The notes under the pieces are model-generated. The model saw nothing but the letters and a program-made list of their open reading frames with translations, did not search any database and was not told the DNA's origin. From positions 107,361 through 171,360 of the forward strand of contig JAEEHF010000047.1 in assembly GCA_016280725.1 (NCBI GenBank): a stretch of 64,000 nt of DNA, written 5' to 3'. The stretch comes from Bacillota bacterium (GTDB lineage Bacteria; Bacillota; Clostridia; TANB77; UBA1234). The first letter of the stretch is position 1. Every line of letters begins with the position of its first letter. This document shows, one piece after another, positions 1,013 to 63,900 of this stretch. The position numbers were made by a program, and so were the translations under genes.

Positions 1013-1041
1013 TTGACAAGTTTACATAACTGCGATATAAT
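1013..1041 (+). promoter_or_regulatory. sigma-A-type promoter TTGACA-17-TATAAT with TTTACATAA motif in spacer
   Basis: ttgaca 1013-1018, tataat 1036-1041, 17-bp spacer; TTTACATAA (reverse complement of TTATGTAAA) at 1021-1029. Confidence 0.8.
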
Positions 1042-1080
1042 ATAAGTGGTTCCAAAATAATAAATGATGGAGGTATCAGT

Positions 1081-1260
1081 ATGTTCAAAAAGAAAACGGA
1101 CAACAAGCCGAAAGAAGCCTCTTCCATCCCCTATGAGGGGTATCGTCCCTATGGGCCTTGTGTATACTGCGGTTACAACAAAGGTGGCGCTTGTACGAAG
1201 GAAGGACCCTGTGATCGTACTTTTGGCGATCATTACCTTCCTAAGGGTTACAACAGTTAA
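1081..1260 (+). CDS. 59-aa Cys-rich small protein, unknown function (GC-shifted)
   Basis: ggaggt RBS then ATG at 1081; MFKKKTDNKPKEASSIPYEGYRPYGPCVYCGYNKGGACTKEGPCDRTFGDHYLPKGYNS; followed by a strong terminator. The supplied 1064 ORF is a different frame. About 47% GC by hand count in an AT-rich context. Confidence 0.65.
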   Translation: MFKKKTDNKPKEASSIPYEGYRPYGPCVYCGYNKGGACTKEGPCDRTFGDHYLPKGYNS

Positions 1261-1266
1261 CAAAGA

Positions 1267-1292
1267 TACGGGGCAGCGAATGCTGCCCCGTG
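1267..1292 (+). terminator. hairpin GGGGCAGC-gaat-GCTGCCCC
   Basis: Perfect 8-bp stem directly after the 1081 ORF. Confidence 0.6.
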
Positions 1293-1349
1293 TTTGCGTT
1301 TAAAAACATATTATCAGTATAGATGCTAGTAAAGAAGCATCTTTTTTTA

Positions 1350-3185
1350 TTACCTAATTTTAATATGTACTTCTCTTAGCTGTTCTTCAGTTACAAAACT
1401 TGGTGCGCCACACATAACATCCTCAGCACTTTTGTTTAATGGAAATGCTATTACATCTCTTATAGTGTCTAAATCTTTAAGCAGCATAATCATCCTATCT
1501 ACTCCTGGTGCCATACCCGCATGTGGAGGTGCACCATATTGAAATGCTGTATATAAAGCACCAAACTTTCTTTTAACTTCTTCCTCGCCATAACCTGCAA
1601 TCTTAAACGCTTCTATCATTATATCTGGCACGTGGTTTCTAACAGCTCCAGAAGAAAGCTCTACACCGTTGCACACAACATCATATTGATAAGCTAGTAT
1701 TTTAAGTGGTTCTATTTCTTTTAGAGCACTTATTCCACCTTGTGGCATTGAAAATGGGTTATGCATAAAACCTAGTTTTCCAGTAACTTCATCTACTTCA
1801 TACATAGGAAAATCTGTTATAAAACAAAATTCAAATTTGTCTTTATCTATTAGGTCTAATCTTTTTCCAAGTTCTTGCCTTATTTGACCTGCAAATTTAT
1901 TTGTAGTTTTTTCAAATACATCAGAAATAAAGAATATTACATCTCCATCTTTTAGACCATATGAATCTTTTAATTCAATTCTCTTTTCTATGCTTAAATA
2001 TTTTGCGATTGGTCCTTTATAAATTGTCTTACTATCTACTTCTATCTCAGATGTTTTTTCTTCATCAGAGTCTACTATACCTAATTGTTCATGCTTTAAT
2101 TTAAGAGACTCTTTATCATATACCTCAATATATCCTAATCCTTGCATACCAATACTAAGAGCATACTGAAGCATTCCCTCAAAAAATGACTTTGGCATAC
2201 TCGTACAACTTGGAGCGACTATTCCTCTTACAGGTTTTAATTTAAAAGGTTTAAAATCTACCTCCTTAAAAAATTCTGTTAGGTCAATTATTTCAAGTGG
2301 GTTTCTTAAATCTGGTTTATCTGTACCATACTTAAGCATTGACTCTCTATAAGGAATTCTTACAAATGGTGGTTTTGAAACTATCTTTTCTGAAAATGTT
2401 ATAAAAGTATCATATAAAACTTTTTCTGCAATTTCCAAAACATCTTCTTGCGTTGCAAATGCCATTTCAAAATCTAGTTGATAAAATTCACCAGGACTTC
2501 TGTCTGCCCTTGCATCTTCGTCTCTAAAGCATGGTGCAATTTGAAAATACCTATCAAACCCTGAGGTCATTAATAGTTGTTTAAATTGTTGCGGTGCTTG
2601 TGGAAGAGCATAAAACATCCCTTTATGCTTTCTAGAAGGAACTAAAAAGTCTCTTGCCCCTTCTGGAGAACTGCAAGTTAAAATAGGCGTAGTAATTTCT
2701 AAAAAACCTAACTCTTCCATTTTCTTTCTTAAAAAGCTTGTAACCTTTGAACGAAATATAATGTTATCGTGCATTTTACTGTTTCTTAAATCTAAAAACC
2801 TGTACTTTAGTCTTGATTCTTCAGAAGATTCAATAGATTTTGATATTTCAAAAGGAAGTTCTGATTTTGAGGACCCAAGAACTTCTATTTTTTCTGCTAA
2901 TAATTCTACTTCGCCAGTTGGAATTTTATTATTGTAAGTCTCCTCATCTCTTAAAATAATCTTTCCTTCAAAAGAAACTACAGTTTCTCTGTGAACATCT
3001 TTAAGCATAGTATCATCGTGAATTACAATTTGAGAAGTTCCGGTTTCATCTCGAAGATCTACAAACAAAATTCCACCATGGTCTCTAATTGTATCAACCC
3101 AACCTGCTAGCTTGTGAGTTTCATTTAGATTATTTCGTCTAATTTCACCACATTTTAAAGTTCTGTAAATACTCATTTTCATCAT
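1350..3185 (-). CDS. aspS: aspartyl-tRNA synthetase (start may be 3176)
   Basis: Full-length class II AspRS; motifs RFLDLRN, FRDEDARADRSPGEFYQLDFEM, APPHAGMAPGVDRMIMLL. Confidence 0.97.
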   Translation of the reverse strand: MMKMSIYRTLKCGEIRRNNLNETHKLAGWVDTIRDHGGILFVDLRDETGTSQIVIHDDTMLKDVHRETVVSFEGKIILRDEETYNNKIPTGEVELLAEKIEVLGSSKSELPFEISKSIESSEESRLKYRFLDLRNSKMHDNIIFRSKVTSFLRKKMEELGFLEITTPILTCSSPEGARDFLVPSRKHKGMFYALPQAPQQFKQLLMTSGFDRYFQIAPCFRDEDARADRSPGEFYQLDFEMAFATQEDVLEIAEKVLYDTFITFSEKIVSKPPFVRIPYRESMLKYGTDKPDLRNPLEIIDLTEFFKEVDFKPFKLKPVRGIVAPSCTSMPKSFFEGMLQYALSIGMQGLGYIEVYDKESLKLKHEQLGIVDSDEEKTSEIEVDSKTIYKGPIAKYLSIEKRIELKDSYGLKDGDVIFFISDVFEKTTNKFAGQIRQELGKRLDLIDKDKFEFCFITDFPMYEVDEVTGKLGFMHNPFSMPQGGISALKEIEPLKILAYQYDVVCNGVELSSGAVRNHVPDIMIEAFKIAGYGEEEVKRKFGALYTAFQYGAPPHAGMAPGVDRMIMLLKDLDTIRDVIAFPLNKSAEDVMCGAPSFVTEEQLREVHIKIR

Positions 3186-3212
3186 TCCTTTCTTTTTAAA
3201 AATTTATATAAT

Positions 3213-3580
3213 AAAAAAACGTCCCATACATGAATAAATCACGTATGGGACGAATTATATTATTGACTATTATAAAGCAATCTAGAGATATACTCCCTAT
3301 GTGGTAAGCTATCTAAATATGCTTTGATACAAAAATCCCTTGCGTAAAATACGCAAGGGACGAATAATCTTATAATCGTGGTACCACCCAAATTTGATAT
3401 CTAACAATATCCTTTCTATGTTAACGCCATCGCAAGCGTGCTTGCTTTGCACAAGCAAACTCATAAGGTGTTCTTTCGCAAAACTCATATATGAGCACTT
3501 TCAGCCGTTTTCGATGCTCACTCTCTAAATAGTGTTGCTTTGTTACTTTTCCTTAATCATCGTCTCTTTGGTTATTGAAT
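3213..3580 (-). promoter_or_regulatory. T-box leader upstream of aspS, with two terminator hairpins
   Basis: Minus-strand GGGTGGTACCACG core (3376-3389), then TTCGTCCCTTGCGT...ACGCAAGGGA (3336-3360) and a second TTCGTCCCATAC...GTATGGGACG-T7 (3213-3252); GAGAGTGAGC-like stem I region at about 3520. Confidence 0.85.
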
Positions 3581-3627
3581 TTATTATTACACGAAATTTA
3601 TTATTTGTCAATTAAAAGTTTTTTAGA

Positions 3628-17769: not shown

Positions 17770-17841
17770 GTTGATGTTTTTATATTAACTTACAATCATA
17801 GAAAAAATATATCCAAATCATGAACAATTTGTGAATTCGAA

Positions 17842-17987
17842 CTTTTGGGGACACGACATTGAGGAGAACTTTTTCTCCTTTGGGGACACGACATTGAGGA
17901 GAATTTTTTCTCCTTTGGGGACACGATGATATGTCCCCAAAAACCTGGTCAGCAGGTCTGACCGTCGTGTCCCCAAAAACCTGGTCA
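17842..17987. repeat. GGGGACACGA palindromic repeat, units of both subtypes
   Basis: ttttggggacacgacattgaggagaa[c/t]ttttctccttt x2, then gtccccaaaaacctggtcagcaggtctgaccgtcgtgtccccaaaaacctgg. Confidence 0.85.
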
Positions 17988-17991
17988 AAAA

Positions 17992-18017
17992 AAGAGCGCT
18001 CCGTTTAGGAACGCTCT
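17992..18017 (-). terminator. hairpin AGAGCG...CGCTCT downstream of 18029 gene
   Basis: agagcgctccgtttaggaacgctct with A-rich upstream flank (U-run on minus). Confidence 0.6.
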
Positions 18018-18028
18018 AAAATATTAAT

Positions 18029-20680
18029 TTAGTTTTTATATGCCCATGGATATGAATGTGTTTTCCAAATCTCTCCACCGCTTGGATTATCATAACTATA
18101 GTGAGAAGTAAATGCTTCTACTAAACTATGGTAATAAGGATGCGTAGCTGGTAAATCACTAAATGGCATATCTATTACTGTTGCTGTAGAATCATCTCTT
18201 TCAAGAAGTCTATTAATTACTCTACAAGCATATCCTCTTTGTAATGGAAAATCTACTCCAAAGTATCCATTCTCATCATCTGTAAAGAATCCTCTTGACG
18301 TAACTTGCGCAATTTGTTTTCTTGCCCAATGCTCAGGATTTACATCATAGTATGGTAAAGTTGTATTTGAAGATAGATTTGCATATCTAGCAATTACAGT
18401 TGCAAATTCCGCTCTAGTCATAGTTTGCTCTGGCTTAAATGTTCCATCTGGATAACCAGTTAATACATTTAGATTTGTTAGATGCATAATAGCATTATAT
18501 GACCATCTGTCTCTCTCAACATCTGAATATGTGATAAGTGATAGAACATTACTTGGTTCTGCAGAATCAGTATCAAGTCTAAATAATATTGTAGCTAGTT
18601 CTTCTCTTGTTATTATTCCTTCTGGTCTAACTGTGTAATCTGGATATCCTCTAATATACCAAATATGATTATCCAAGATTTCTTCATTTTCAGTATAAAT
18701 CTCTACTGTGTAGTCAATTATTATTGATTCATGTTTGTTTCTAGCACGAATTTGGAAATAATCTTTAGCTAGCGAATTATACTTTGGAATATATCTTATA
18801 TGTGAGTTATTTACTATCTGAACTTGTCCATCAAGTGGTTGTGAATAGATAGTATAAATAAGTGGCTCAGCATACTCACCAAGATTCTTATCTTTTTGTG
18901 GCAATTCAGGAGAAGTATAAGTTTCATTCATATGAATTCTTATTAGCTTATCCTTTTTCTTAACTATGTCAGATTCTTCTAATTTCTTTCTAATATAGAT
19001 GTCTACTCTTACCGGATCAGAAATATTTCCATCACCATCTTCTAATACAGTTATAAAATAATCCCACCCGTAATAACCTGGATCTGGTACATATTGATAT
19101 CTTCTATCTGGCCAGTATTCTTCATTATTATTTGCTTTTCCATGATCTGGCTTATCTATTAATCTAACTTTTACTATTCCCTTATCATCAGTTCCCTTAA
19201 CTTCAGATATAAATGGAGTATCTTGATCTGTAACTTCAGTTGTATCTGTTCCTGTAGGTCTTCCTGATGATTCTTTTACATTAATCGTAATTCTAGCAGT
19301 ATTTGATTTAACGCCATCTTCATTTATACAATGGTAGCTAAAGTTCTCTTTACCTATCCATCCCTTTTCTGGGGTATAAATAAATGATCCATCTTTCTCT
19401 ACCCATTCAAAAGTTCCATGCTGAGGTTTTGTTTCAAGAACAAAGTCTTTAATTTTACTTCCACCATTTAGTTTAACAGTAACTGAATCTGTTAATGTTT
19501 GATTAACGTAGATTGTGTTATTATAATCCATCGCCATAGGCGGTTTTTCATTTGGATCTGGTGTTGCTGTTGGAGCAGGTGTAGGCGTTGAAGTTGGCGC
19601 AGCAGATGGTGTTGCTGTCGGTGCTGCCGTCGGTGCTGCTGTTGGTTCAGCAGTTGGTACTGCTGTTGGAACTGCTGTTGGCACTGCCGTTGGTTCAGCT
19701 GTTGGTACCGCTGTTGGAACTGCCGTTGGTACTGCTGTTGGAACTGCTGTTGGCACTGCCGTTGGTTCAGCTGTTGGTACCGCTGTTGGAACTGCCGTTG
19801 GTACTGCTGTTGGAACTGCTGTTGGAACTGCTGTTGGAACTGCTGTTGGCACTGCCGTTGGTACTGCTGTTGGTACTTTTGTTGGTTTTGTTGTAGGTGC
19901 AGGTCTTTCCTTAACCAAAATAACAAATCCATCTGACTCTCCATATCCATCAACATGTGCACGAAGAATTACATTTCCTGGCTCTAATCCATACACAGTA
20001 GTACTTGTCCCATATGTATTTATAAGTGAAGCTTTACCCGAAGTAAATGAAATTGACCAATTTGCATTAAGTAATCCACCTTTTTTGCTAACAGCTGAAA
20101 CATCAATTGTCTCACCTACATACACTATTGTTGGACCTTGAATCATAAACTCATCCGAATCTATCGTATTTGGAGCAGGAGTTGTTGTTGATTTTAACTT
20201 TGGCGCTGATGTAGGTGCAGTTGTAGCTGTTCCATTACCTGGAACTTTACACAAAGTACATAGTTGTGGAGTACCTAGCATATTATGGTTTTCAACAATT
20301 CCCCTATTTAGTACTTTATTACAAAGACCACACTTAATGTCGTATGTATGTTGAACACTATGTATATATACATAATTATAGTGAACATACTTTCCTATTG
20401 GGTGATTACATGGTGTATTGGCTGGTGCAGGTTTATTATTTGATTCTTTGTTACTATCCCCCGTAAAACTGTCCGTTATTGTTTTTATAATACTTTCAAA
20501 AAATCCCATGGTTCCTTGCTTTGCAGTTTTTACATAACTATCTTCTGAGTCTTCTCCAAGCGAAACCGCACTAATTGTGAAAATCATGGCAATTAGAGCT
20601 AGAATACAAAGAACCCACTTCCCGCTAATTCTTCCTTCATTATTACGAAATAAACTCTTTTTTTTCATTTGATTTATCAT
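18029..20680 (-). CDS. secreted SLH surface protein with VPTA repeat stalk and cadherin/Ig-like (Big_9-like) domains
   Basis: TM/signal; about 24 VPTAVPTA units; ITREELATILFR / MTRAEFATVIARYA SLH motifs. Confidence 0.85.
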   Translation of the reverse strand: MINQMKKKSLFRNNEGRISGKWVLCILALIAMIFTISAVSLGEDSEDSYVKTAKQGTMGFFESIIKTITDSFTGDSNKESNNKPAPANTPCNHPIGKYVHYNYVYIHSVQHTYDIKCGLCNKVLNRGIVENHNMLGTPQLCTLCKVPGNGTATTAPTSAPKLKSTTTPAPNTIDSDEFMIQGPTIVYVGETIDVSAVSKKGGLLNANWSISFTSGKASLINTYGTSTTVYGLEPGNVILRAHVDGYGESDGFVILVKERPAPTTKPTKVPTAVPTAVPTAVPTAVPTAVPTAVPTAVPTAVPTAEPTAVPTAVPTAVPTAVPTAVPTAEPTAVPTAVPTAVPTAEPTAAPTAAPTATPSAAPTSTPTPAPTATPDPNEKPPMAMDYNNTIYVNQTLTDSVTVKLNGGSKIKDFVLETKPQHGTFEWVEKDGSFIYTPEKGWIGKENFSYHCINEDGVKSNTARITINVKESSGRPTGTDTTEVTDQDTPFISEVKGTDDKGIVKVRLIDKPDHGKANNNEEYWPDRRYQYVPDPGYYGWDYFITVLEDGDGNISDPVRVDIYIRKKLEESDIVKKKDKLIRIHMNETYTSPELPQKDKNLGEYAEPLIYTIYSQPLDGQVQIVNNSHIRYIPKYNSLAKDYFQIRARNKHESIIIDYTVEIYTENEEILDNHIWYIRGYPDYTVRPEGIITREELATILFRLDTDSAEPSNVLSLITYSDVERDRWSYNAIMHLTNLNVLTGYPDGTFKPEQTMTRAEFATVIARYANLSSNTTLPYYDVNPEHWARKQIAQVTSRGFFTDDENGYFGVDFPLQRGYACRVINRLLERDDSTATVIDMPFSDLPATHPYYHSLVEAFTSHYSYDNPSGGEIWKTHSYPWAYKN
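19600..19890. repeat. 12-bp minisatellite (VPTA) with 72-bp higher-order duplication
   Basis: ggaactgctgttggcactgccgttggttcagctgttggtaccgctgttggaactgccgttggtactgctgtt occurs at about 19668 and about 19740. Confidence 0.85.
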
Positions 20681-20838: not shown

Positions 20839-20867
20839 TTGACAATTATGTAAAGTTATGTTAGAAT
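20839..20867 (+). promoter_or_regulatory. promoter TTGACA-17-TAGAAT with TTATGTAAA and TTATGTTA motifs
   Basis: ttgaca 20839-20844; tagaat 20862-20867; TTATGTAAA 20846-20854. Confidence 0.8.
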
Positions 20868-20956: not shown

Positions 20957-21526
20957 ATGTTCAATCATCTCAGGACTCAGAGCATCAAGGAACTCATCAT
21001 TCGCGTGATCTTTTTCGTCATCTGTGCCGCTACCATCCTCCTGGTGGTCATCAGTGAGGTCGGTCCGACGATAATGACTGTTGTCGGGTACTGCGTAACC
21101 ATCCCTGGCCTCATTGCCGGCTTCTACGCAGGAAGTCAGTTGCTTATCAAGCACCTCAGCCGGAAGAAGAAGGACCGGGAACCTACCCTTGAGGAGGTTG
21201 AAGACTGGGACAGCGTTGATGAGCCGGACGAGGAGGACGAACTCCCTCTTCCCACTGGATTTTACAGAGAGGACGATGAGGAAGAGCTTCCTCCTCAGCC
21301 AGCCAAGAAGCGCGCCCCGAAAAAGCGTACCCCGGCCCCCAAGCCCGTCGCTCCTGTCGAGGATGAAGACGAGGATGATGAGGAGTCTGGTGAGCTTCCC
21401 AAGCAGCCGCAGCAGCCGCCCAAGAAACCGGCCCCGAAGAAGCGTAACCCAGCTCCCAAGCCCGTCGCTCCTGTCGAGGATGAAGCGCCTGCTCCGCGTA
21501 GGCGTCGGGCTGCTCCCAAGGCGTAA
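20957..21526 (+). CDS. membrane-anchored protein with Pro/Lys/acidic low-complexity tail, unknown function (GC-rich)
   Basis: Two TM segments then KKRAPKKRTPAPKPVAPVEDEDEDDEE and duplicated PKPVAPVEDE; RBS aaaggag. Confidence 0.75.
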   Translation: MFNHLRTQSIKELIIRVIFFVICAATILLVVISEVGPTIMTVVGYCVTIPGLIAGFYAGSQLLIKHLSRKKKDREPTLEEVEDWDSVDEPDEEDELPLPTGFYREDDEEELPPQPAKKRAPKKRTPAPKPVAPVEDEDEDDEESGELPKQPQQPPKKPAPKKRNPAPKPVAPVEDEAPAPRRRRAAPKA

Positions 21527-21532: not shown

Positions 21533-21564
21533 ACCGCAGCGGTATCTCCGCTGCGGCCTTTTTT
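21533..21564 (+). terminator. rho-independent terminator
   Basis: CCGCAGCGGtatctCCGCTGCGGcctttttttatttt. Confidence 0.9.
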
Positions 21565-23793: not shown

Positions 23794-23877
23794 TCAATTA
23801 TGATTTAACAAGATAATTATTACACTTTTCTTACAAAATATAAAGCGATTTTGGAAATTTGAAAACGAAATTGGACA

Positions 23878-23984
23878 CCAGGTTTTTGGGGACACGACGG
23901 TCACACCTGCTCACCAGGTCTAAGTGTCGTGTCCCCAAAAACCTGGTGAGCAGGTGTGACCGTCGTGTCCCCAAAAACCTGGTG
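23878..23984. repeat. GGGGACACGAC palindromic repeat, two overlapping units
   Basis: Perfect 21-bp inverted repeat CCAGGTTTTTGGGGACACGAC (23878-23898) / GTCGTGTCCCCAAAAACCTGG (23926-23946). Confidence 0.9.
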
Positions 23985-23995
23985 GACGAAAAATA

Positions 23996-24024
23996 TTGCG
24001 TTATGTTAAGTAACGTGATATAAT
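23996..24024 (+). promoter_or_regulatory. promoter TTGCGT-17-TATAAT with TTATGTTAA motif
   Basis: tataat 24019-24024; TTATGTTAA 24001-24009 inside CGTTAtgttaagTAACG. Confidence 0.7.
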
Positions 24025-24093: not shown

Positions 24094-26787
24094 ATGGCAG
24101 TGAGACTACTCGACAAGATTGAAGTTTTAATACTTCGGATTCCAGATGGTGACATTTATAAAAATGCGCTTCAAACCGAATACTTAAAGTATAGAACTAT
24201 TTTAGAAGCGCTCCCTAAAGATGTTACTGTTCCTCAAAAACTTTACAGCAGTATTTTTTCACTATCTCAAAGACTTGAGTACTATGTAATCCGTGGCAAA
24301 AGTACAAATCCTTTTTTGGAACTCTCCCCAACTTTATCTGAAAAGATTACTGACGAGAGTGAAAAAGAAGAATTTTTGGACTTAGTAAAATCTAATTCTT
24401 CATACATTGAAACTCAAAAGACTAAACTTGAAGTTCTAAAATCATACTTAGACAATTTATCTACGGATAATACTTTAGACGCGATTATTTCTACTATTCA
24501 AATTGTTGAAAGAGAATATCGCGAACTAAATGTCTACTCTAATATGTTGGAAAAAGAGATTGCAAAAGCAAAATTCATCTATATGCTGAAGCTTCTCTAT
24601 GAAAACATGTTAACTGATGCTCAGAACTTAGCGGACACTTTTGACTATGATATGGTGCTAGTAGTTTACAATCGCTATAAAGACTCTGTAAAGGGACTTA
24701 TAGCTGATGGCAAAGTTACTCTTGCCCATAAGATTAGTGACTTTCTTATCAAACTTTCTTTAGATATGATTACAAATCTTGACTTTTGGAAAGTGCTAGC
24801 ACAAATTGAGAATCCTTCATATGACCCTAGCACTGACATTATCATCACTGAAGAAAATAGTACCATCATCACTTCTCCAGTCGAGCAAGAGCTTGCTGTA
24901 AAAAAGAAAAAGCCAAATTCTTTCTTGCGCTTCTTCTCCGGTAAACCTTCGAACGTTAAAAAAATCAAAGGAAATAACTATTACATCATTATTAACGATT
25001 CGAAGCTGACAATTGAACTTACAGTGTTCAAAGGTCTATACATGTCACCAGACAATCTCCAAAAGCTGTGTGACGAGCTCGAAAAGATTTGCAAGAAAAA
25101 ATCGACTCAGCAAACAATCAATGATGTCATTTTGGTCGTAACTGAAATCTCTACGTTCATTATTCCTAAAACTGCCTCTGGTATTTATAGCATCATTTCC
25201 AAAATTAGTAACGTTATTTCTCTTCGGGAAGTTCAGATTCAAGGTAGCAGTACTACTCACTCTTTCGAAGGCGGATTTATGGAAAGACTTCTCATAGAAA
25301 AAGTCACTATAAGTGGTGGTTCTTGGCTTTTGGGTGCAGGAGCATTCCGCAATTGTCTTCTCCTAAAAGAGGTCGATCTAAGTAGTACACAGCTTGAAAA
25401 GCTTGGTGACTATGCCTTCGATAACTGTGTTGACCTTGTAGAAGTAAAGCTTCCTTATAGAGTAAATGGTTACAGTCTTGGAAAAGGACTATTCCGTGGA
25501 TGCAGAGTTCTTGAAACTGTTAATTGGCCATATGACGTGACCGAAATTCAGAGCGAAACTTTTCAAGGATGTACCAAGCTTAAGACCATCGGCTACACTC
25601 ATCTTAAGACAATTGAAGACCGTGCTTTTGAGGGATGTGAATCACTAGAGTCAATTTCAAGTTCTTCTATTATGAGAATTGGTGAGCGTGCCTTCTATGG
25701 TTGCAAATCTCTTACTAGTTTTTCTTTTGCAAAAGATTGCAGAATTTCTGACTATGCTTTTGCACTTAGTGGACTTAAGAAACTGGAACTTTCTGTTCTT
25801 TTCAAATCCATGGGACGTTATTGTTTCCTAAAGTCCAAGCTCCAATTAGTCTCATTTACTGGTGATCTCTCCGTACCTCAAGGAACTTTTAAGGACTGTA
25901 CTTCTCTTACAACTGTTGAGCTTACTCCGGATATTACGGTCCTTTCAAAAGAAGCATTCTCTGGTTGCACTGCACTTAAAACTATCATCGGTCCAAACGA
26001 GTTCACTTATATTGGCGATGAATGCTTTAAGGGATGTGAAACTCTCAGTAAAATTCTTCTATCAAAAAGCGCCACGTATGTTGGAAAAAGTAGTTTTGAA
26101 GGATGCGCAAGCCTAACAAAAATTCTTTATCCAGCTGTTGAAACTGTTGAAACCGACGCTTTCAAAGATTGTACTCATATTGAAGAATTCATATTCGAAA
26201 CTCCTGAGTCAATCTTAAGAATCTGTGATGGTGCTTTTGAAGGATGTGAACGCCTTAGAACTTTTACTCCTCCACCAAATCTAAAGGTAATCGGAAACAG
26301 AGCATTCAAAGGAACAGACATTAAACTTTTCTTAATGCCAGATTCCGTTACTGAAATTGGTGATGAAGCATTTTGTGAATGTATGTATCTGCAAAAAGTA
26401 GCTCTTTCAAAAAAGCTAAAGCAAATAAGTGCGAGACTATTCTTTGGCTGCACTAACCTTCAGGAAATTGACTTAAGTCCTTGCCAAATTGAAAACATTC
26501 TCGAACTTGCTTTTAGTGAATGTGAGAGTCTTAGAAAAGTTACCTTCTGCTCAAATATCAGATTTGTTTCACATGATGCTTTTGACTTTACTTTTAGTAT
26601 TCGCGAAGTAGTAATTCCTGAGTGGTATGCAAATGGTGAACAATTTGAAAATGAATCTGAGCAGTACAAGTTTCTTCAAGGATGCTTAGTACATTTTGAA
26701 CTTCAACAGTACAGAATAAAAGAAGTAACACTAGTCGATAACACGTATGTCACAACTGTGATTGCCAAGAAATTCGACAAGCTCTAA
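24094..26787 (+). CDS. BspA-type (LRR_5) leucine-rich repeat protein with novel N-terminal region
   Basis: Repeated LxxIxxxAFxGCxxLxxVxLPxxV units; RBS gaaaggag; no obvious signal peptide. Confidence 0.85.
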   Translation: MAVRLLDKIEVLILRIPDGDIYKNALQTEYLKYRTILEALPKDVTVPQKLYSSIFSLSQRLEYYVIRGKSTNPFLELSPTLSEKITDESEKEEFLDLVKSNSSYIETQKTKLEVLKSYLDNLSTDNTLDAIISTIQIVEREYRELNVYSNMLEKEIAKAKFIYMLKLLYENMLTDAQNLADTFDYDMVLVVYNRYKDSVKGLIADGKVTLAHKISDFLIKLSLDMITNLDFWKVLAQIENPSYDPSTDIIITEENSTIITSPVEQELAVKKKKPNSFLRFFSGKPSNVKKIKGNNYYIIINDSKLTIELTVFKGLYMSPDNLQKLCDELEKICKKKSTQQTINDVILVVTEISTFIIPKTASGIYSIISKISNVISLREVQIQGSSTTHSFEGGFMERLLIEKVTISGGSWLLGAGAFRNCLLLKEVDLSSTQLEKLGDYAFDNCVDLVEVKLPYRVNGYSLGKGLFRGCRVLETVNWPYDVTEIQSETFQGCTKLKTIGYTHLKTIEDRAFEGCESLESISSSSIMRIGERAFYGCKSLTSFSFAKDCRISDYAFALSGLKKLELSVLFKSMGRYCFLKSKLQLVSFTGDLSVPQGTFKDCTSLTTVELTPDITVLSKEAFSGCTALKTIIGPNEFTYIGDECFKGCETLSKILLSKSATYVGKSSFEGCASLTKILYPAVETVETDAFKDCTHIEEFIFETPESILRICDGAFEGCERLRTFTPPPNLKVIGNRAFKGTDIKLFLMPDSVTEIGDEAFCECMYLQKVALSKKLKQISARLFFGCTNLQEIDLSPCQIENILELAFSECESLRKVTFCSNIRFVSHDAFDFTFSIREVVIPEWYANGEQFENESEQYKFLQGCLVHFELQQYRIKEVTLVDNTYVTTVIAKKFDKL

Positions 26788-26930: not shown

Positions 26931-26933
26931 GTC

Positions 26934-35900: not shown

Positions 35901-38882
35901 TGTTTGAAGTGTAATTGTGTAGTTAGAAGTCGTTACAGTAGTATTGTCTGATGTTTTCTTAATTACAGCACTATTTTCAGTTAATGTAAGTGTTCCTGTC
36001 CCAACATTTGTGATACTAGATGTTGGTCCTCCAATTGAAGTAAGGCTTTCACCTGTAATTAGTCCTGTAACTGTTACCGCTCCCGTACCAGTTGTAATTG
36101 GTAAAGGATTTGCGTAAGTTACGGTTTGGTTATTTGCTTTAATTGTTAATCCTTTTGGATTAATTGTTACTGTTTTACTTCCAGTAACTGTTGTATAACC
36201 TGTTTTGGTTATTTGAAAATAAACTGTATATGTTCCTGCGTCAGTATATGTAGGACTAGCATTTAAATTATATGTACCAGAAGCAGTTTTTCTATATTTA
36301 ATTGTTGCCCCCGATGTGTTACATGACACTGAAATACCATGTTCAGCGCCATCATATGTCCCAGTATAGTCGTTAGCTGTATATGAAAGAGTTAATGGAT
36401 TAATTGTTCCACCATCTACAAGCGGTGCATATGTTATCGAGTAATTATCTGTTGTGTTTGCACCACCACTTATTTTAGAAATGGTAGCATTACTTGGAGT
36501 AAGAGTCGTTGTTCCAACTGCAGCTGAATCAGCTGTTATTGTTATTGCTGACACCTTCTCTCCTGTAGCTAATCCACTTCCTGAAATTGCAACTTTTGAT
36601 GTATCACTACTAAAGCTTCCACCAAAGTCAATTGTTTGTGCAATTGGCGTAATCGTAATTGTTCGAGGTGTAACTTCAACATCAACGTCATTTGAAGGTG
36701 GAGAATCATCATGTGATTCATCGCCTACCAAGAATGCTCTAATCTTTATTGTTCCAACATTTGTAATACTTGGTATGGTTTCACTCCATTCACTCCATGT
36801 TGTACCATCATCTTCACTGTATATGTACATAAGTGTACCAATTGAGCCTGCACTAACTTGTGGACTATGCGCCTGCCCATCGTACATACTTGAAGAACCT
36901 GTAAGTGTTGGTGCTGTTAATGCTGGTTTTATGATCGTCAAAAGTCCTGTGCCATAAGTTATATTATAATTGCTTGTTCTATTTTCACTACCATTTCTTA
37001 TTTGAACATCTATAACATTTATATCTTTAGTAAGTGGCGTTCCATTATCTTGTGCCTCAAGTTCAACACTGTATAAAGTATCCCCCGTAGCAAGTCCATC
37101 ACCACTTATAGTTACCTGCGAAGTTGCAGACGACATACTTCCGCCATAATTGATTGTCTGATTTTTAGGTGTTACTGTTATATTTCTCGGAGTAATTTTC
37201 CATGTAACTTCCCTATAACCATTTGTTCCATCTTCCCAACGTTTATAACGTTCTCCATTACTTGCTGCCTTAGGAGAAATGAATATAGAGTATGTCCCCA
37301 CATTAGTTGCACTTGTAACGCTATCGGATCGCACTGTAAAGTCACTCGAAATACTTACCGTTTGTTCACTACCATTATATTTTTTATCCTCAATAGTAGG
37401 AAGTTCTAGCGGATCATATACGTAAAAATTCGTAAGAATGGAAGTTGCTGAATCTCCTCTAACATTTATGCAAGTAAATACAATAGTTGAAGGTTGCCCT
37501 GGTGGTGTATATGCAGAAAGTGCCGTAACAGTAACATCTAAATATCTTTTATTAGACCCAACTGTAATATTCGAAAATTCAACATAATTATTTGGCAATT
37601 CCGTATGACTTACCCCATTAACGTACCAAGGTACTTTATTTTCTGTTATTTGTATTCTATATTTTCTAGTTGCTCCAACAGGAATGTACGCACTTTGTCC
37701 ATCCTCTAACAAAATTGCACCCTCAGGCATAGGCGTTGTAGGAGCAGGTGTTGGAGTTGGTTGCTCACCATACTCTAGCACAACATGTCCATTAGGATAA
37801 TGAGTGGTTGTGTTTTTCGATGTTGTCGTGTAGCCTGAGGCATTCTCACCTCTTAATCCCATATATGCAAAATCATATTTAGTTGTTTGGAATGCCCCTT
37901 TTATTCCAAAAGTCGATGTATTCATTCTCTTTAAGACAACTTGCGAACCTCCTGAAGATAAGGCATCACTCCATGTATCTAGGTTATTCCAATCAAGATT
38001 AACTGTAAAAGTGGTTCCAGCAGTATAATTAGAAAATTGTGTACTCGTACTCTGCCCTGCAACAAGAGCTACAACCTCGCCTGCGGATCCACCACCATAA
38101 GTTACTCTTCCGAATTGTAACCATGTTGCTGTTGATATATTGGTATTATATTTAACAACATATGCCCTCTTATTACCGGAAGGTATACTATCAACAAATT
38201 CTAGATACCTTCCACCTATATTAGAAGAAGATGTTGTTTGTCCCCAAATTTTAACCGTAACATTTCTATCGCTAGTACCATATGAATTGTCAACAACTAT
38301 ATATTGTACATTATCAGAATCTGGTTCCACTGGTTTTGGAACAACACCAGATGGTATAGGTGTAGGTGAAGGTGTAGGTGTTGCTGTTTGACCAGGTATT
38401 AAAGTTGGAGTCGGTGTTGGTGTTGGTGTTGTGCTTTGTATTTTATACTTTTGTTCATAACCACATACTGAACATGTTCTAACATTATATCCATTTACAA
38501 CATGCCAAGAACCAAAGCTGTGAGCTGAAAACGTCCCTGATTGTTGATATCCGCACCATTTACATGCATGCCAGTGGCCTTCAGAATTCTTTGACCACGA
38601 TGTTAAATAGTAATGGGCCTGAAACGAAACGCTTATATCATCACATTTACAATAAACTTGGTGACCCGTACTATTAGGATTATGATATGTGAAACCAACT
38701 GTACACGCATAGTGGTGGGCATTACCATACTGGTTATCTGTTCCTGCGCAGGCAGCACATCTAGCATATGCTTCTTTAGATGTCGCCATAGAAAACATGA
38801 GCAGTATTATTCCCCACAAAAATTTATTTGAAAGAAGTCTCTTTATAATTCCAACTTCTTTGTTATTAACCTCTTTATACAT
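26934..38882 (-). CDS. giant secreted protein with tandem MBG/YDG-type repeats and a beta-helix-like segment (start likely 38882)
   Basis: Signal peptide after MYKEVNNKEVG; >25 repeats of the type TYTVYYQITKTGYTTVTGSKTVxI / ITVKANNQTIxYG; RBS ggagg upstream of 38882. Confidence 0.88.
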   Translation of the reverse strand: MYKEVNNKEVGIIKRLLSNKFLWGIILLMFSMATSKEAYARCAACAGTDNQYGNAHHYACTVGFTYHNPNSTGHQVYCKCDDISVSFQAHYYLTSWSKNSEGHWHACKWCGYQQSGTFSAHSFGSWHVVNGYNVRTCSVCGYEQKYKIQSTTPTPTPTPTLIPGQTATPTPSPTPIPSGVVPKPVEPDSDNVQYIVVDNSYGTSDRNVTVKIWGQTTSSSNIGGRYLEFVDSIPSGNKRAYVVKYNTNISTATWLQFGRVTYGGGSAGEVVALVAGQSTSTQFSNYTAGTTFTVNLDWNNLDTWSDALSSGGSQVVLKRMNTSTFGIKGAFQTTKYDFAYMGLRGENASGYTTTSKNTTTHYPNGHVVLEYGEQPTPTPAPTTPMPEGAILLEDGQSAYIPVGATRKYRIQITENKVPWYVNGVSHTELPNNYVEFSNITVGSNKRYLDVTVTALSAYTPPGQPSTIVFTCINVRGDSATSILTNFYVYDPLELPTIEDKKYNGSEQTVSISSDFTVRSDSVTSATNVGTYSIFISPKAASNGERYKRWEDGTNGYREVTWKITPRNITVTPKNQTINYGGSMSSATSQVTISGDGLATGDTLYSVELEAQDNGTPLTKDINVIDVQIRNGSENRTSNYNITYGTGLLTIIKPALTAPTLTGSSSMYDGQAHSPQVSAGSIGTLMYIYSEDDGTTWSEWSETIPSITNVGTIKIRAFLVGDESHDDSPPSNDVDVEVTPRTITITPIAQTIDFGGSFSSDTSKVAISGSGLATGEKVSAITITADSAAVGTTTLTPSNATISKISGGANTTDNYSITYAPLVDGGTINPLTLSYTANDYTGTYDGAEHGISVSCNTSGATIKYRKTASGTYNLNASPTYTDAGTYTVYFQITKTGYTTVTGSKTVTINPKGLTIKANNQTVTYANPLPITTGTGAVTVTGLITGESLTSIGGPTSSITNVGTGTLTLTENSAVIKKTSDNTTVTTSNYTITLQTGTITVNPATISKPTITGSSGTYKNATYTVTGPSSVPVGTVQYSYKESTSSTWSAWSTDVPTRLDVGTTNVKARILAPNSNYTTSAESNSVNITINKRTITIKANNQTINYGEDFDNTKFTVVNTGDGLAPNETVTVTLSPTTAGVGQVTLTPTAVIKRTSTGAVTTGNYTITTQTGTGTVNPLTIQYTATGYNGAWDGELHGVTVQVSDPSGAIVKFSNNGGATYTESESPKYRDVTSSPITVYFEISATGYTPVHDFRTISITNNPITANANNFSGQYDGESHGITVTVTVPSSGAEVKYSTDGGTTYTSNTSPTIMHVYESPLMVYYKITATGYGDFYGTGTVTITKAPGVGTVSLDDWVYGSPKDPQPHSDTNGETGVTYKYKGRGSTTYTESATKPENVGTYTVTATFPATGDYTSATATDTFSITKKSITPPTGKTLNYTGSQQTGVDPASNGEYTITGNTGTDVGNYTATAEVTSNYKWSTTSNASIDISWKIQSIPLDYTANGYNKKYDGAAHGITVTCSGATIKYGTSSGQYTLTSSPTYTDVGTYTVYYQITKTGYTTVTGSKTVVITQRNLTITPIAQTINYGQNFSNDPSKFTVTGDGIISSEKLSSITISPTTAAVGTTTLTPSNATITKTSGGTNTTANYDITYAPLTDGGTVNPLTLSYTSSGYTGTYDGAEHGITVTSAGATIRYGTTSGTYGLSSSPQYVDYTTGVTVYYQITREGYTTVTGSEVVKINKRPITVKANNQSIVYGNSIEKGLSAVTVTDNGTTITNGNLIPGDVLSVANTSPSSNTTNVGSGTLSVADADVTIVKSGTSTNKKTNYAITYQTGTLTITKAPIETAPTITGSTNTYNNTPYTITYPSSVSGGTLKYSYRTSTNGGSTWSSWSSYSTEVPTRIDYGITQVKAKIVGDSNHSDSPESTAVNITVNKRAITVKPKSQTVYWGDPINSGTAWVDITNGSLATGESITSATITSNPASTQTDSVTLSATVVISRTSGGVVTTGNYNITYQTTGIPIPKRTFTYTSAGFSGPYDGQPHSISVSVTTPDSGVTIKYKETESGTYSGTKPSYIEAGEYRVYFQITADGYTTVESSEVVAIGDHFVQATATGFDGVYDGQPHGITVQVTDPSNENDYSIKYGTSASSVTQNSSPTYTNFTNGFVTIYYTVTATGYNPRSGSAQVRIQKAQGSGSVTIADWTYGNTSSVPQPTSSTNGTSNVTYEYKVRGAADSTYTAFTSSAPSNAGNYTLRATFAETTNYLACTATTDFTIYRKTIPYPVANETQEYTGNPIIGVPANPAQYNIVDNEGIEPGDYDAIATPNSNHQWDRGTDRTGPITISWRIKKAPGTATLSMSGWTYGDSPTPNPSVTFDKDEIPSITYRYVGIGDTSYASSTTKPTNAGTYRVTASFGSTTHYTYSSVSQDFTIERQPIAVPVGLELTYTGSEQTGVSEASGGQYTITGNKGTAVGVYHATATPTSNFKWSTGDNPTGSRDIVWSIGTDTLVYTAYDYNNYYDGAAHGISVTCTGGNITYGETEGTYNLNSSPTITNVSQSPKTVYFKIEKAGYETVTSSRSIIINPKPVTIKASDQTITYGEEVGTGVDYVSANGIITGEELISIGGPTSNITDVSQSPGTLTIAPNSAVIAKSSNHSNVTTTNYAITLQTGTLTIVKAGTQAPTITGSNNEYNNVDYSVTGPSSVSGGTLKYSYSTDGGTTWSNYSETAPKRKVVGTTKVKAKIVGDSNHNDSPESSVVDIVVSARAITVRPINQTIFWGDSISSGKDYIEITDGSLATGESITAATVTSTSTQASSATLSITNESVVIKAGSTTTTSNYTITRDTRIINPQLRTFVYTSSGYNGAWDGQPHSITVNVTTPSSMSGVTIKYRTTSTGAYNLADNPQYTNPGEYTVYFQITKDGYTPATGSEVVSIGNNQMTVTSSGYSGVYNGQPHSITVNVTVPSSGRTIYYSTDGGSTYSTTNPQFTDFTNGAKTVNYRVVADGYQDYTGSETVNITKANGTANVTLASWTYGSPNNPTSASPTNAGGTVTYSYSGRGSTTYGPSSTRPSNVGTYTVTVTFGVVLNYNQVTASTNFEIYSAPGEGSVTMASWTYGGTASNPQPVSSTNGTSNVTYSYSGRNGTTYGPSGTKPSNAGDYTVTATFVDPTGNHSNATASANFSIYKANGTGSVTMAGWVEGNTASNPVPTSSTNGTTNVTYSYSGRNGTTYGPSATKPTTAGDYTVTATFVDPNGNYNDVHASADFTIAEANYRVGTTYFTTIKSAYDSISGSSGTIVVVRSNTDTSTLTIASEKNITIDLDGKTIQVTHGIVNNGGLTVGGGGSIISNTGAFNTLIYTTGALIVNDVTLENQGYGSSAWFTILGASFGSVTLNNGANIICNDHYTASSSSSARAVGIKGHTTLTVNQGASISADVANNKAKGIEVWGYNSYNDAVGNITINGGSIFGDNSALSFGGENGYKCTSDATISGNAQISSISDSAIMFSSTGTLTINDATITSQDGYALRKRNMDGNMNSNIVINGGLLQSQNNIAICDEANALGSLIITGGTIKSDSSIGIYSESSSTITIGTSGLPVSTSVPLIQGLTYGIDASSWNFYDGIIKGATDAYTNAPIAVEPGYGVVHENEVISGTTYDTAFLGLTLSNLVASVSPTTYVYDGTAKTPTPKLMDGTTELVLGTHYTVTYSNNINVGTATATFTAIEGSGYSGTIAVNFTITKAPIPIPTFAEKVYNGSSQTIGTGTAQYTIGSVNTATNAGVYAATVTPTSNYMWVDGTDGAKQIPWHISPKPIAVVWGATDTFTYNGNPQGPTASCATGISGQTITLQTTKYTKVGTYVSLASIDSVSGTGALASNYVLTNTTKTFTIVTNDNVAPTGTISVLNTVTANSNREFVNSNDVMLRITAQDDSEVTDMAIANENSRNTINWQDYNGQASMDVSWSLSNGDGEKTVYLMLRDEHGNTTVSFEQ

Positions 38883-39108
38883 AATGAAGGCCTCCTTATA
38901 CGTCTTCAATAAAATCAATCTATCAATAAAACCTATTAATTGCATAATAAGCTTATTATCCTAATACATTTTACAATACTTCTTATATAAATACACAATT
39001 GTAACAAAATTGTAAGATAAAATCGCGATTTTTCTTAAGGAAGCAAGGTTTTTGTTGACTTTTTTATAAAGGTAAAATAAATTATTTATAATTAAGGGGT
39101 GAATTTAT

Positions 39109-40089: not shown

Positions 40090-40104
40090 CGTGAAAAAAT
40101 AAGG

Positions 40105-40179
40105 TCACCAGGTTTTTGGGGACACGACAGTTAGACCTGCTCACATGGTCTAACTGTCGTGTCCCCATTGACCTGGTGA
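40105..40179. repeat. GGGGACACGAC palindrome forming a long hairpin between convergent genes
   Basis: Perfect 20-bp arms GGGGACACGACAGTTAGACC (40118-40137) / GGTCTAACTGTCGTGTCCCC (40147-40166), outer TCACCAGGT/ACCTGGTGA. Confidence 0.95.
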
Positions 40180-43752: not shown

Positions 43753-43816
43753 TTTATCTCCTCTTTTGTTATTATTTGATATCATTTTATCATTACTAAA
43801 ATTGCATTTCAAGACA

Positions 43817-43945
43817 AGGTTTTTGGGGACACGACAGTTAGACCTGCTCACCAGGTTTTTGGGGACACGACGGTCACACCTGCTCACCAGGTTTTTGGGG
43901 ACACGACAGTTAGACCTGCTTACCAGTTTTTTGGGGACAGGTCAC
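43817..43945. repeat. 36-bp tandem array of the GGGGACACGAC repeat, four units
   Basis: AGGTTTTTGGGGACACGAC starts at 43817, 43853, 43889; degenerate AGTTTTTTGGGGACAGG at 43925; constant 36-bp spacing. Confidence 0.93.
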
Positions 43946-43969
43946 CCCCCAACTTTTGAACAAAAACAC

Positions 43970-44001
43970 TTGATTTTTCCTGCATATTATGTTAACATAA
44001 T
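43970..44001 (+). promoter_or_regulatory. putative promoter overlapped by 16-bp perfect palindrome ATTATGTTAACATAAT
   Basis: ttgatt 43970-43975, taacat 43993-43998; palindrome 43986-44001. Confidence 0.65.
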
Positions 44002-44064: not shown

Positions 44065-44304
44065 ATGATCAGGAGTTCCAAGCGATTCAATTCTCTGGTA
44101 AACAACCTTGCCTTTTTCTGGAACATGGATCGTGAAGAATGCTGGGCTGTTGCTTCCCGGATGGGATGGAAAATGTCTCTTCAGAATGGCTCGGAAGTAT
44201 GGACAGCCATCCGTCTGAATGGAACGACCCTGGTAGTGGCTCAGTATCTCGGCGAGAATGCCGATATGGAATGGATTTTCAACGAGATTCCTCTCCGGAG
44301 GTAA
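44065..44304 (+). CDS. 79-aa hypothetical protein (GC-shifted)
   Basis: RBS aaaggaggat; MIRSSKRFNSLVNNLAFFWNMDREECWAVASRMGWKMSLQNGSEVWTAIRLNGTTLVVAQYLGENADMEWIFNEIPLRR; terminator follows. Confidence 0.7.
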   Translation: MIRSSKRFNSLVNNLAFFWNMDREECWAVASRMGWKMSLQNGSEVWTAIRLNGTTLVVAQYLGENADMEWIFNEIPLRR

Positions 44305-44320: not shown

Positions 44321-44350
44321 CAAAAAAGCACCCGAAAGGGTGCTTTTTTT
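44321..44350 (+). terminator. rho-independent terminator
   Basis: AAAAAGCACCCgaaaGGGTGCTTTTTTT. Confidence 0.9.
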
Positions 44351-44383
44351 GATTATATTTGCTAATCTTAGTTTCCCTGACCT

Positions 44384-44500
44384 GTCCCCGAAAACCTGGT
44401 GAGCAGGTGTGACCGTCGTGTCCCCAAAAACCTGGTAAGCAGGTGTGACCGTCGTGTCCCCAAAAACCTTAACCGTCGTGTCCCCAAAAACCTGGTTAGC
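44384..44500. repeat. GGGGACACGAC repeat array, inverted orientation relative to 43817 array
   Basis: acctggtgagcaggtgtgaccgtcgtgtccccaaaa x about 3 with one truncated unit; last unit runs into ileS stop codon. Confidence 0.9.
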
Positions 44501-47500
44501 AGACTTTTAGAGATACTTTAATCTTCTCTCCATTTATATCTAATTCTGTACCAGCATTTTCTTTTTGTTCTACTTTATCTGCTAAAGTTTCATCTGCTAT
44601 TTGCTCTTTGTTCTTTTCTATTATTTCTTCTAATTTATCATTGCCACAATAGTACATTTCGATATGATTTTGAACTTCAAATCCGGAATCTTTTCTTAGA
44701 TTTTGTATCTTAGAGATATACTCTCTTACAAATCCTTCTTCGATTAATTCATCATTTAATTCAACGTCTAGAACTACTGTTAAATCGCCACCTTGTGCAG
44801 ATACATACTTATCTGATTTTGTTGTTTCAACAAGCATGTCTTCTTCAAGAAGTTCATATTTTGTTCCGTCTAATTCTATTACAACTTTACCATTTGCATT
44901 TAGTTCGGCAACGAATTTTGTTCCGTCTGTTTCATTTAAATATGTTCTTAATTTTTGTAAATCTTTTCCAAATTTTGGTCCACATGTCTTTAGATTTGGT
45001 TTAACATTATACGATACAAACTTACCAGCATCTTCAGTAAATTCAACTTCTTTAACGTTTAATTCTTCTTTTATGATGTAATAATATCCTTCATCTAAAT
45101 GTCTCTTTGTTCCAACATATGCCTTAGATAGAACTTGTCTATTTTTCATATTTGAAACATTTCTACATGTTCTTCCAAGAGTAACTATGTCTAATACTAG
45201 GTCCATGTTTTGCTCAAGTTTTGCATCTATGAAGCTTTCCTCAACAGCTGGGAAGTCGCATAGATGGATACTTTCTGGTGCATTTTTATCAAAGTTTACA
45301 ACTAAGTTTTGATAGATTTGTTCTGTCATAAATGGTACAAATGGTGCGCATACTTTAGATAATGTAACTAATGTTGTGTATAGAGTCATATATGCATTTA
45401 TCTTATCTTGTTCCATTCCCTTTGCCCAGAATCTATCTCTTGAACGTCTTACGTACCAGTTTGATAGCTCATCTGTAAAGTCTTGGATTGCTCTTGCAGA
45501 CTCTGTTATCTTGTATTCCATCATGTTGCTATCTACAAATTTAACTAAGCTATTTAGTTTTGATAAAACCCATTTATCCATTTGTGAAAGCTTATCATAC
45601 TCAAGCTTATATTCCATTGGATTAAAGTTATCTATATCGGCATATAATACATAGAAAGCATAAGTATTCCAGAATGTTCCTATGAATTTTCTTTGATATT
45701 CAGAAACAGCATCATCATAAAATCTTGTTGGAAGCCATGGTGATGAAGAAGCTGCAAAATACCAACGTACAGCATCAGCGCCTTGCTTATCTAATACTGA
45801 CCAAGGGTCTACTACATTGCCCTTGTGTTTACTCATCTTAAGTCCATCTTTATCTTGAACGTGTCCTAATACTAAGCAATTTTCAAAAGGTGATTTATCG
45901 AATAGAAGTGTAGATATTGCCATAAGTGTATAGAACCATCCTCTTGTTTGGTCGATAGCTTCAGATATAAATTGAGCAGGAAAATGCTTTTCAAATAATT
46001 CTTTATTTTCAAATGGATAGTGATATTGTGCAAATGGCATTGAACCAGAATCAAACCAACAGTCTATAACGTATGGTACTCTGTTCATTGTCTTTCCACA
46101 TTTTTCGCACTTAATGTGAACTTCGTCTATGTATGGTTTATGAAGTTCTATATCGTCTGGAACATTATCACCAAGTTTTTTAAGTTCTTCTATTGAACCT
46201 ATAACGTGGTGATGACCACATTCGCACTCCCATACTGGAAGTGGTGTTCCCCAGTATCTAGAACGAGATAGACCCCAGTCTATGACGTTTTCTAGAAAGT
46301 TTCCAAATCTTCCCTCTTTGATATTGTCTGGCATCCAATTTACAGTGTTGTTGTTTTTAACTAGTCTATCGCGAAGTGAAGACATCTTTATAAACCATGT
46401 ATCGATTGCATAGTATAGAAGTGGTGTATCACATCTCCAGCAGAATGGATATGAGTGCTCAAATGGGATTGCTTCGAATAAAAGACCTCTTTCTTCTAAG
46501 TCTTTTAATACAAGCTTATCAGCATCTTTTACAAAAGTTCCAGCCCACTCTCCCGTTTCTTTTGTAAAGTTTCCTTGTTCATCAACTAATTGTATAAATG
46601 GCAAATCATTTTCTCTACCAACTCTAGCATCATCTTCACCAAATGCAGGAGCTATATGAACAATACCCGTACCGTCTGTAAGTGTAACATAGTTATCAGC
46701 AACTACATACCATGCTCTTCCCTCTACTGTGTCTTTAACGAATGGATATAAAGGTTCATAGTCTGTTTGACATAGTTCTGTACCTACACATTTTCTAACA
46801 ACTTCATATTTTCCTTTTAAAACAGAAGAAGCAAGTGCCTCAGCCAAGATGTATTTAGTACCATCTTCCATTTTGCATACAGCGTACATTTCATTTGGAT
46901 TTACGCAAAGTGCTGTATTTGATGGAAGTGTCCAAGGTGTAGTTGTCCATGCTAAGATGTATGTATTTTCCTCATTTTTAACTTTAAATCTAGCTATACA
47001 TGATGTTTCTTTAACATCTTTATACCCTTGTGCTACTTCATGAGAAGAAAGTGATGTTCCGCAGCGTGGACAATATGGTACAACTTTATGACCTTTATAT
47101 AATAAACCTTTATCATTTATTGTCTTTAATGCCCACCAAACTGATTCGATATAATTGTTTTCATAAGTTACATATGGATTGTCCATATCTGCCCAGAATC
47201 CAACTCTATCTGACATTTCTTCCCATTCGTGTTTATACTTCCAAACGCTTTCTTTACATTGTTTTATAAATGGCTCAACACCATATTTTTCAATTTGAGG
47301 TTTTCCATTTATACCTAGTGCTTTTTCAACTTCTAGTTCTACTGGAAGACCATGTGTATCCCAACCTGCCTTTCTAGGAACTTCATAGCCTTTCATGGTC
47401 ATAAACCTTGGAACAACGTCTTTAAATACACGTGTTTCGATGTGGCCTATATGTGGCTTTCCATTAGCTGTTGGAGGGCCATCATAAAACATAAATGTTT

Positions 47501-60468: not shown

Positions 60469-60474
60469 TTTTAT

Positions 60475-62818: not shown

Positions 62819-62832
62819 GCATCCTCACGCTC

Positions 62833-62861
62833 TTGATTTATGTAAACCTTTGTGGTATAAT
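62833..62861 (+). promoter_or_regulatory. promoter TTGATT-17-TATAAT with TTATGTAAA motif
   Basis: ttgatt 62833-62838; tataat 62856-62861; TTATGTAAA 62838-62846. Confidence 0.8.
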
Positions 62862-62947
62862 ATTCTTGACACTGTATAACAAATAGGTAAATCTCATAAT
62901 TGGTTACCTAAACTCTCTGATTTTGGACCGTGTATAGGAGGATTAGC

Positions 62948-63277
62948 ATGGAAAGAGTCATTAAATTTGGTGAAGAAGCACTGGTTGTCATTTACACAAA
63001 TCTGCCTGCTCTCCCGATCGTCATTGGAAGAGTTCAGTTCATGGAACGGAATCGGATCATCATCGCTCCTCAGGTTTTCTTGTTGAATTCAGAAGGGAAA
63101 GAAGCAGTTGGATATTACACCCCAAATGGCCCGCTTGTAACCATCTATGCTGAATCAATAGGGGCTTGGAAGTACTTAAAAAAGACGGATCTCCAGTATA
63201 TGGAGAATACCGCCAAGAAAGTCCCCGAGGAAAGTAAAAAGTATTACAGGGATTTCAATAAGATGGTAATTGTATGA
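62948..63277 (+). CDS. 109-aa hypothetical protein (GC-shifted)
   Basis: RBS aggaggat; MERVIKFGEEALVVIYTNLPALPIVIGRVQFMERNRIIIAPQVFLLNSEGKEAVGYYTPNGPLVTIYAES... Confidence 0.75.
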   Translation: MERVIKFGEEALVVIYTNLPALPIVIGRVQFMERNRIIIAPQVFLLNSEGKEAVGYYTPNGPLVTIYAESIGAWKYLKKTDLQYMENTAKKVPEESKKYYRDFNKMVIV

Positions 63278-63318
63278 GGAGGTAATACGCAGGCAAAAAG
63301 GTTACTACTTGTCTGTTT

Positions 63319-63358
63319 GTTGGCACACACTAGTTACAAAGTGTGTGCTTTACTTTTT
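63319..63358 (+). terminator. hairpin GGCACACAC...GTGTGTGC with T-rich tail
   Basis: gcacacactagttacaaagtgtgtgctttactttt. Confidence 0.8.
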
Positions 63359-63433
63359 ACTATTAAATCTTTCTAATTTGTTAAACAAATTAGCTTTATA
63401 TCCTTTACTAAAATCTCTGCCTACCCAAGTTTC

Positions 63434-63462
63434 TTGACATTATGTAAATTTCGTTATATAAT
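63434..63462 (+). promoter_or_regulatory. promoter TTGACA-17-TATAAT with TTATGTAAA motif
   Basis: ttgaca 63434-63439; tataat 63457-63462; TTATGTAAA 63440-63448. Confidence 0.85.
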
Positions 63463-63497
63463 CTCTCATGAAAATATATTTTGAAAGGAGAATCCAC

Positions 63498-63872
63498 ATG
63501 AGTATGCAAAGACCCACCGTTTCTTGGGCGGAAGTAGACTCGTTTCTGGACCGGATTGCTGAAAAATACTCAGCAATGAACATCTCTGGGATATATGGTA
63601 TCCCGCGTGGCGGAATCGTTCTCGCTACATGGCTGTCGTATAAAATGAATGTTCCCCTTCTTCAGGGCGCTGCTGACAACTGCATTATCATCGATGATAT
63701 ATGTGACAGTGGGGAAACCCTTGTCCACTACGCTCGGAACTCCTCCGATGCTGGACGTGATAGGGGTTATCACCTCGTAACTCTCTTCTACAAAGAGTCA
63801 TCCTCTGTGAAGCCTGAAAGTTATGGCTTCGTCAAGGGTGACCAGTGGGTAATCTTCCCGTGGGAAGTTTGA
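63498..63872 (+). CDS. phosphoribosyltransferase-fold protein (GC-shifted)
   Basis: SGIYGIPRGGIVLATWLSYKM and PRPP loop CIIIDDICDSGETLVHY; RBS gaaaggag. Confidence 0.85.
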   Translation: MSMQRPTVSWAEVDSFLDRIAEKYSAMNISGIYGIPRGGIVLATWLSYKMNVPLLQGAADNCIIIDDICDSGETLVHYARNSSDAGRDRGYHLVTLFYKESSSVKPESYGFVKGDQWVIFPWEV

Positions 63873-63900
63873 TTTTACAAATTGAGAGGAGGATTTCAAA

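Follow-up and report, generated by a model that had tools for sequence, protein, structure and literature searches.

Do scattered, mostly unrelated bacterial genes share one promoter element and, through it, one regulator? The question is raised by a 64,000-bp stretch of DNA (the window) at the end of contig C74 (107361-171360) in the metagenome-assembled genome (MAG) G000, which comprises 2.23 Mb in 146 contigs with 7% contamination; the GC content of the window is 34%. A first-pass annotation had described here six GC-shifted units, all on the + strand, that carry the motif TTATGTWAA in their promoters. We confirmed six 29-bp promoters with 17-bp spacers and found the motif in every one of them, as the reverse complement in unit 1. 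Beyond the window, a core of this motif, TTATGTNAA, is concentrated in the promoters of genes with high GC content at third codon positions (GC3) and is nearly restricted to one order of AT-rich gut Clostridia about which little is known. The units are as follows.

1013..1041, + strand: unit 1 promoter, TTGACA-17-TATAAT, with reverse motif TTTACATAA at 1021-1029
1081..1260, + strand: unit 1 gene, Cys-rich ORFan of 59 amino acids (aa)
20839..20867, + strand: unit 2 promoter, with TTATGTAAA at 20846-20854
20957..21526, + strand: unit 2 gene, 189 aa with a hydrophobic N-terminal region and a Pro/Ala/Lys-rich tail, GC3 0.65
21534..21556, + strand: unit 2 intrinsic terminator, 9-bp stem and T run
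23996..24024, + strand: unit 3 promoter, with TTATGTTAA at 24001-24009
24094..26787, + strand: unit 3 gene, BspA-type leucine-rich-repeat protein of 897 aa, GC3 0.30 (mild shift)
43970..43998, + strand: unit 4 promoter, with TTATGTTAACATAA at 43987-44000, overlapping the -10 box
44065..44304, + strand: unit 4 gene, ORFan of 79 aa, GC3 0.56
about 44328-44350: unit 4 terminator
62833..62861, + strand: unit 5 promoter, with TTATGTAAA at 62838-62846
62948..63277, + strand: unit 5 gene, ORFan of 109 aa
63323..63348, + strand: unit 5 hairpin/terminator
63434..63462, + strand: unit 6 promoter, with TTATGTAAA at 63440-63448, kept in orthologues
63498..63872, + strand: unit 6 gene, phosphoribosyltransferase-fold protein
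63901..64000, + strand: 5' part of the second open reading frame (ORF) of unit 6, interrupted by the contig end

Terminator-like hairpins lie downstream of the units, as described. The GC shift was confirmed for five of the six genes (GC3 about 0.47-0.65, compared to a median of 0.20 for ORFs on the sampled contigs) but is only mild at 24094. The common orientation is a local accident, since units elsewhere in the genome lie on both strands. Mostly, the genes had been said to lack recognisable families; most motif genes are indeed ORFans, but some belong to known families. Among the unit genes of the window, only the leucine-rich-repeat protein of unit 3 and the phosphoribosyltransferase of unit 6 have clear Pfam domains, and a Pfam search with the unit 2 protein gave no match. 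An alternative ORF for unit 1 (1064-1303, overlapping 1081-1260) is unlikely, since it reads through the terminator.

The bare 9-mer TTATGTWAA shows no excess genome-wide (190 sites versus 241 for the reversed control); therefore, its position relative to promoters was tested. The test set, taken as stretches, consisted of 1.07 Mb of G000 and 0.53 Mb of the same genus. We used a simple ORF caller and counted an ORF if its ribosome-binding site was good and no gene of the same strand closely preceded it; the phage contig C57 was excluded. ORFs with GC3 of at least 0.33, a threshold set by eye, were classed as GC3-rich. On either strand, TTATGTNAA was found in the promoter core of 38 of the 84 GC3-rich ORFs but of only 29 of the 485 others (p=2e-18); in the GC3-rich set it was oriented forward in 19 cases and reverse in 20. 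With the window genes removed, TTATGTNAA was still the best discriminator of all tested gapped 8-mers (37/82 versus 59/473, p=8e-11), ahead of a runner-up at 9e-6. The second species, G001, gave a similar result by itself, with the motif at 16 of 29 GC-rich genes versus 26 of 152 others (p=4e-5). The share of genes with the motif increased with GC3, independently of the threshold, from 3% (GC3 0.15-0.25) through 11% (0.25-0.33) to 31%, 45% and 50%. Promoter strength predicted the motif too, and GC3 remained predictive beside promoter score; in the strongest quarter of promoters, the motif was present at 26 of 42 GC-rich genes versus 14 of 105 others. Within spacers, 32 motifs were observed, compared to 1.2 in shuffled spacers.

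Employing TTATGTWAANNGTGNTATAAT with up to one mismatch, we detected the motif in 55 of the 57 genomes of the order, with control matches close to zero. The exact promoter-embedded form was found in 6 of 12 members of the order versus 2 of 279 genomes sampled from the rest of the class. Among the matches listed for named genomes, exact matches came mostly from MAGs of uncultured gut Clostridia, and in the listed matches of named relatives the genes downstream of the motif exceeded local GC by a median of 7.4 points, compared to 1.4 and 0.2 points in two motif-free promoter sets (p=3e-6 and 4e-9). The unit 6 protein has orthologues in all four genomes of the genus; beyond the genus, the order contains a single weak match. 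All four orthologous promoters retain the motif, three at the same place and the fourth with the motif shifted onto the -35 box. Enrichment in target promoters over other promoters and retention in orthologous promoters, by which a transcription-factor regulon is recognised, were thus both observed.

Which genes lie behind the motif? Their coding sequences in the GC-rich set are nearly all mutually unrelated. A family search with 48 GC-rich genes (44 from relatives and 4 from the window) matched three Pfam and seven PHROG families, one member each, and none of the 48 proteins matched a PADLOC defence system. Flotillin-like, GH18-like, Fic-like, radical-SAM-like and signal-peptide proteins were recognised in the genus by eye from the sequence, outside any family search. 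The unselected set of motif genes also holds MnmE, ABC transporters and a ribose-phosphate pyrophosphokinase-like protein, and hence not all are ORFans. In the sampled part of G001, orthologues were found for 6 of 81 GC-rich genes versus 150 of 823 others. Those of the GC-rich genes were still GC-rich (median GC3 0.44 versus 0.20, n=6), which argues that GC richness is maintained and is not merely a trace of very recent transfer.

A phage origin of the units was considered and rejected. PHROG matches were few, and for units 4 and 5 no relatives were found among viruses. The unit 6 phosphoribosyltransferase has a 48% homologue at L264:3004-3369, on a 28%-GC viral contig of IMG/VR, where it sits within an apparent queuosine-type biosynthesis cluster; its promoter region lacks the motif. 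On C57, a phage contig of the same bin (L022/L023), GC-rich genes are without the motif in the 130 bp upstream. This contig has portal and terminase-like matches and a GC-rich region with four paralogous ORFans (GC3 0.64-0.82), and its ORFs become longer if TGA is read through, a hint of stop-codon recoding.

Aligned, the sites read TTATGT[T/A/C]AA followed mostly by C (TTATGT[TAC]AAC), asymmetric and without a second half-site. The palindromic operator ATTATGTTAACATAAT of the first-pass annotation was thus not borne out: the perfect palindrome occurs in 10 of 95 genomes, similar to the reversed control, and is not enriched across the order, with surplus copies in G001 only. Across the genus, the motif covers the -35 box in reversed form (TTGACATAA), occupies the spacer in either orientation, or covers the -10 box, with a few sites farther up or down. 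That the position varies and both orientations occur is consistent with an operator, and placement within the polymerase footprint that leaves the hexamers intact suggests the operator of a repressor.

We consider it probable that TTATGTNAA(C) serves as operator for a single, order-specific regulator that blocks polymerase. One DNA-binding regulator, conserved in the order, would bind TTATGTNAA(C) within the RNA-polymerase footprint of sigma-A promoters, and blocking of polymerase would be its likely action. Its main targets would be accessory units of one or two genes whose GC content exceeds that of the chromosome and most of which are ORFans, together with a minority of ordinary genes. Enrichment in independent sequence and conservation across the order support the shared regulator first proposed; binding by a protein, repression, and the action of a single protein we infer from sequence. 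Several observations weigh against this explanation. No regulator was identified. The site is not the palindrome of a dimer, and about 6% of ordinary genes also have TTATGTNAA in the promoter core. In family f5 (G045 and G039, whose stretches were partly selected around motif matches) one position dominates, 6 nt before the -10 box, as would be the case for a core promoter element, and the link to GC is weak in G045 and absent in G039. All data are from MAGs, G000 with the contamination given above, and genes were delimited with the simple ORF caller already mentioned.

The strongest rival explanation is that the motif is part of a core promoter variant, TTATGTWAA-N2-RTGN-TATAAT, read directly by RNA polymerase or its sigma factor in the order, and that accessory genes merely tend to have the strongest such promoters. 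The 6-nt spacing in other families (15 versus 1 in the control, and 10 versus 0), together with the weak or absent GC link there, makes a core-promoter role conceivable in those families. Many sites have an extended -10, the motif is commoner in stronger promoters, and expectation-maximisation on GC-rich upstream regions yielded TGACata...tATG.TATAAT. Against a core element speak the sites of the genus, which face either way and occupy several positions, the different motif positions in unit 6 orthologues, and an excess at GC-rich genes that persists among equally strong promoters; we regard this explanation as rather improbable. The motif is identical to the right-hand (XerD) arm of dif, which is conserved as TTATGTTAAC / TTATGTAAAGT (PMC2731167), and the units could be Xer-recombined cassettes, or XerD could bind these promoters. 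One whole unit has been gained or lost: in the sister genome G003, the dUTPase-like gene and unit 6 lie without unit 5 (promoter, gene and terminator) between them. The breakpoints, however, lie outside the motif. No XerC arm or inner dyad is found beside the sites, dif-shaped sites in the order are not above control, and the half-site upstream of xerD itself is not conserved. A motif 3' of the genes is only slightly in excess (14/114 versus 65/1018, p=0.03), with no general paired 3' site. A pdif module has a 28-bp XerC-6-XerD site at both cassette ends, and the units show neither. Since these tests were negative or weak, a role of Xer recombination is retained only as an unlikely alternative.

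Could the units instead descend from a single mobile element and owe their common promoter to homology, with movement perhaps due to the surrounding repetitive extragenic palindromic (REP) repeats and REP-associated tyrosine transposases (RAYT)? REP arrays adjoin units 3 and 4 as well as C62:97791, and RAYT genes are present. The coding sequences, however, are unrelated, and what is shared amounts to 9-10 bp of varying position and orientation, which largely refutes common descent; moreover, the REP core is found in 2 of 57 genomes, whereas the promoter motif is found in 55. We hold this origin to be very improbable. That the repeats drive the pattern, with the motif as part of the repeat, was rejected, because the REP core is confined to two genomes and the motif is order-wide. 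A chance pattern in an AT-rich genome would agree with the lack of enrichment of the bare 9-mer, but controlled replication, both in sequence beyond the window and in further genomes, has already refuted it, and its probability is negligible.

The repeats themselves are head-to-head tandem units of 35/36 bp with the core GTCGTGTCCCC.

17841-18018, 23869-23985, 26848-26932, 40103-40179, 43810-43958 and 44358-44502: REP-like arrays in the window

The core occurs 156 times in G000 and 88 times in G003; the order's 55 other genomes have none. RAYT genes (PF01797) with flanking REP arrays are located at C74:38095, at C68:7754 and on C66 of G003. Unit 4 is enclosed by 94-nt inverted repeats made of REP arrays. 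In G001, a different REP-like repeat, GCAACTTGGGGACGGTTCT, lies upstream of the unit 6 orthologue (L269, about 1250-1400). Two further repetitive features of the window are a 4003-aa protein with many repeated segments (26934-38945), adjoining unit 3, and a 12-bp coding repeat at 19511-19930, present in over 20 copies inside the ORF 18029-20680.

How does the proposed operator compare with known systems? As with H-NS, Lsr2/CgpS, Rok and MvaT, one factor would act on many unrelated, compositionally deviant accessory genes. Xenogeneic silencers, however, cover long stretches of foreign DNA that is AT-richer than the host, whereas here the targets are GC-richer and the element is a motif of 9-10 bp in the promoter core. 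CodY, AbrB, CcpA, Rex, GlnR/TnrA and PhoP/WalR likewise have operators within sigma-A promoters of scattered genes; their consensus sites do not match TTATGTNAAC, and the sites described here differ from those of such global repressors of Firmicutes in having no direct or inverted repeat. Nothing but dif was found in the literature on matching operators. The dif and pdif modules share the XerD arm TTATGT[AT]AA[AC], but our sites are tied to the -35 and -10 boxes and have no second arm, paired flanking sites or dif-like site. Morons, phage genes with their own promoter and terminator, are likewise single genes of deviant GC between conserved genes; the units differ in lying on a bacterial chromosome, in having a common operator and in matching few phage families.

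Whether a lineage-specific regulator is dedicated to those accessory genes that stand out as foreign in AT-rich hosts by their GC-rich composition is a separate matter, which we put forward tentatively, as a possibility less likely to be true than false. Each gained gene would bring or acquire an operator-promoter, and an order-wide regulon of unrelated ORFans would result. If so, this would be the compositional reverse of silencing by H-NS and Lsr2, a control of accessory DNA via a defined operator, aimed at GC-rich instead of AT-rich genes. ORFans of uncultured gut Clostridia offer no functional handle; a shared operator would group many of them into one response, and finding the regulator and its signal would reveal, in a single step, the conditions under which numerous dark genes are expressed.
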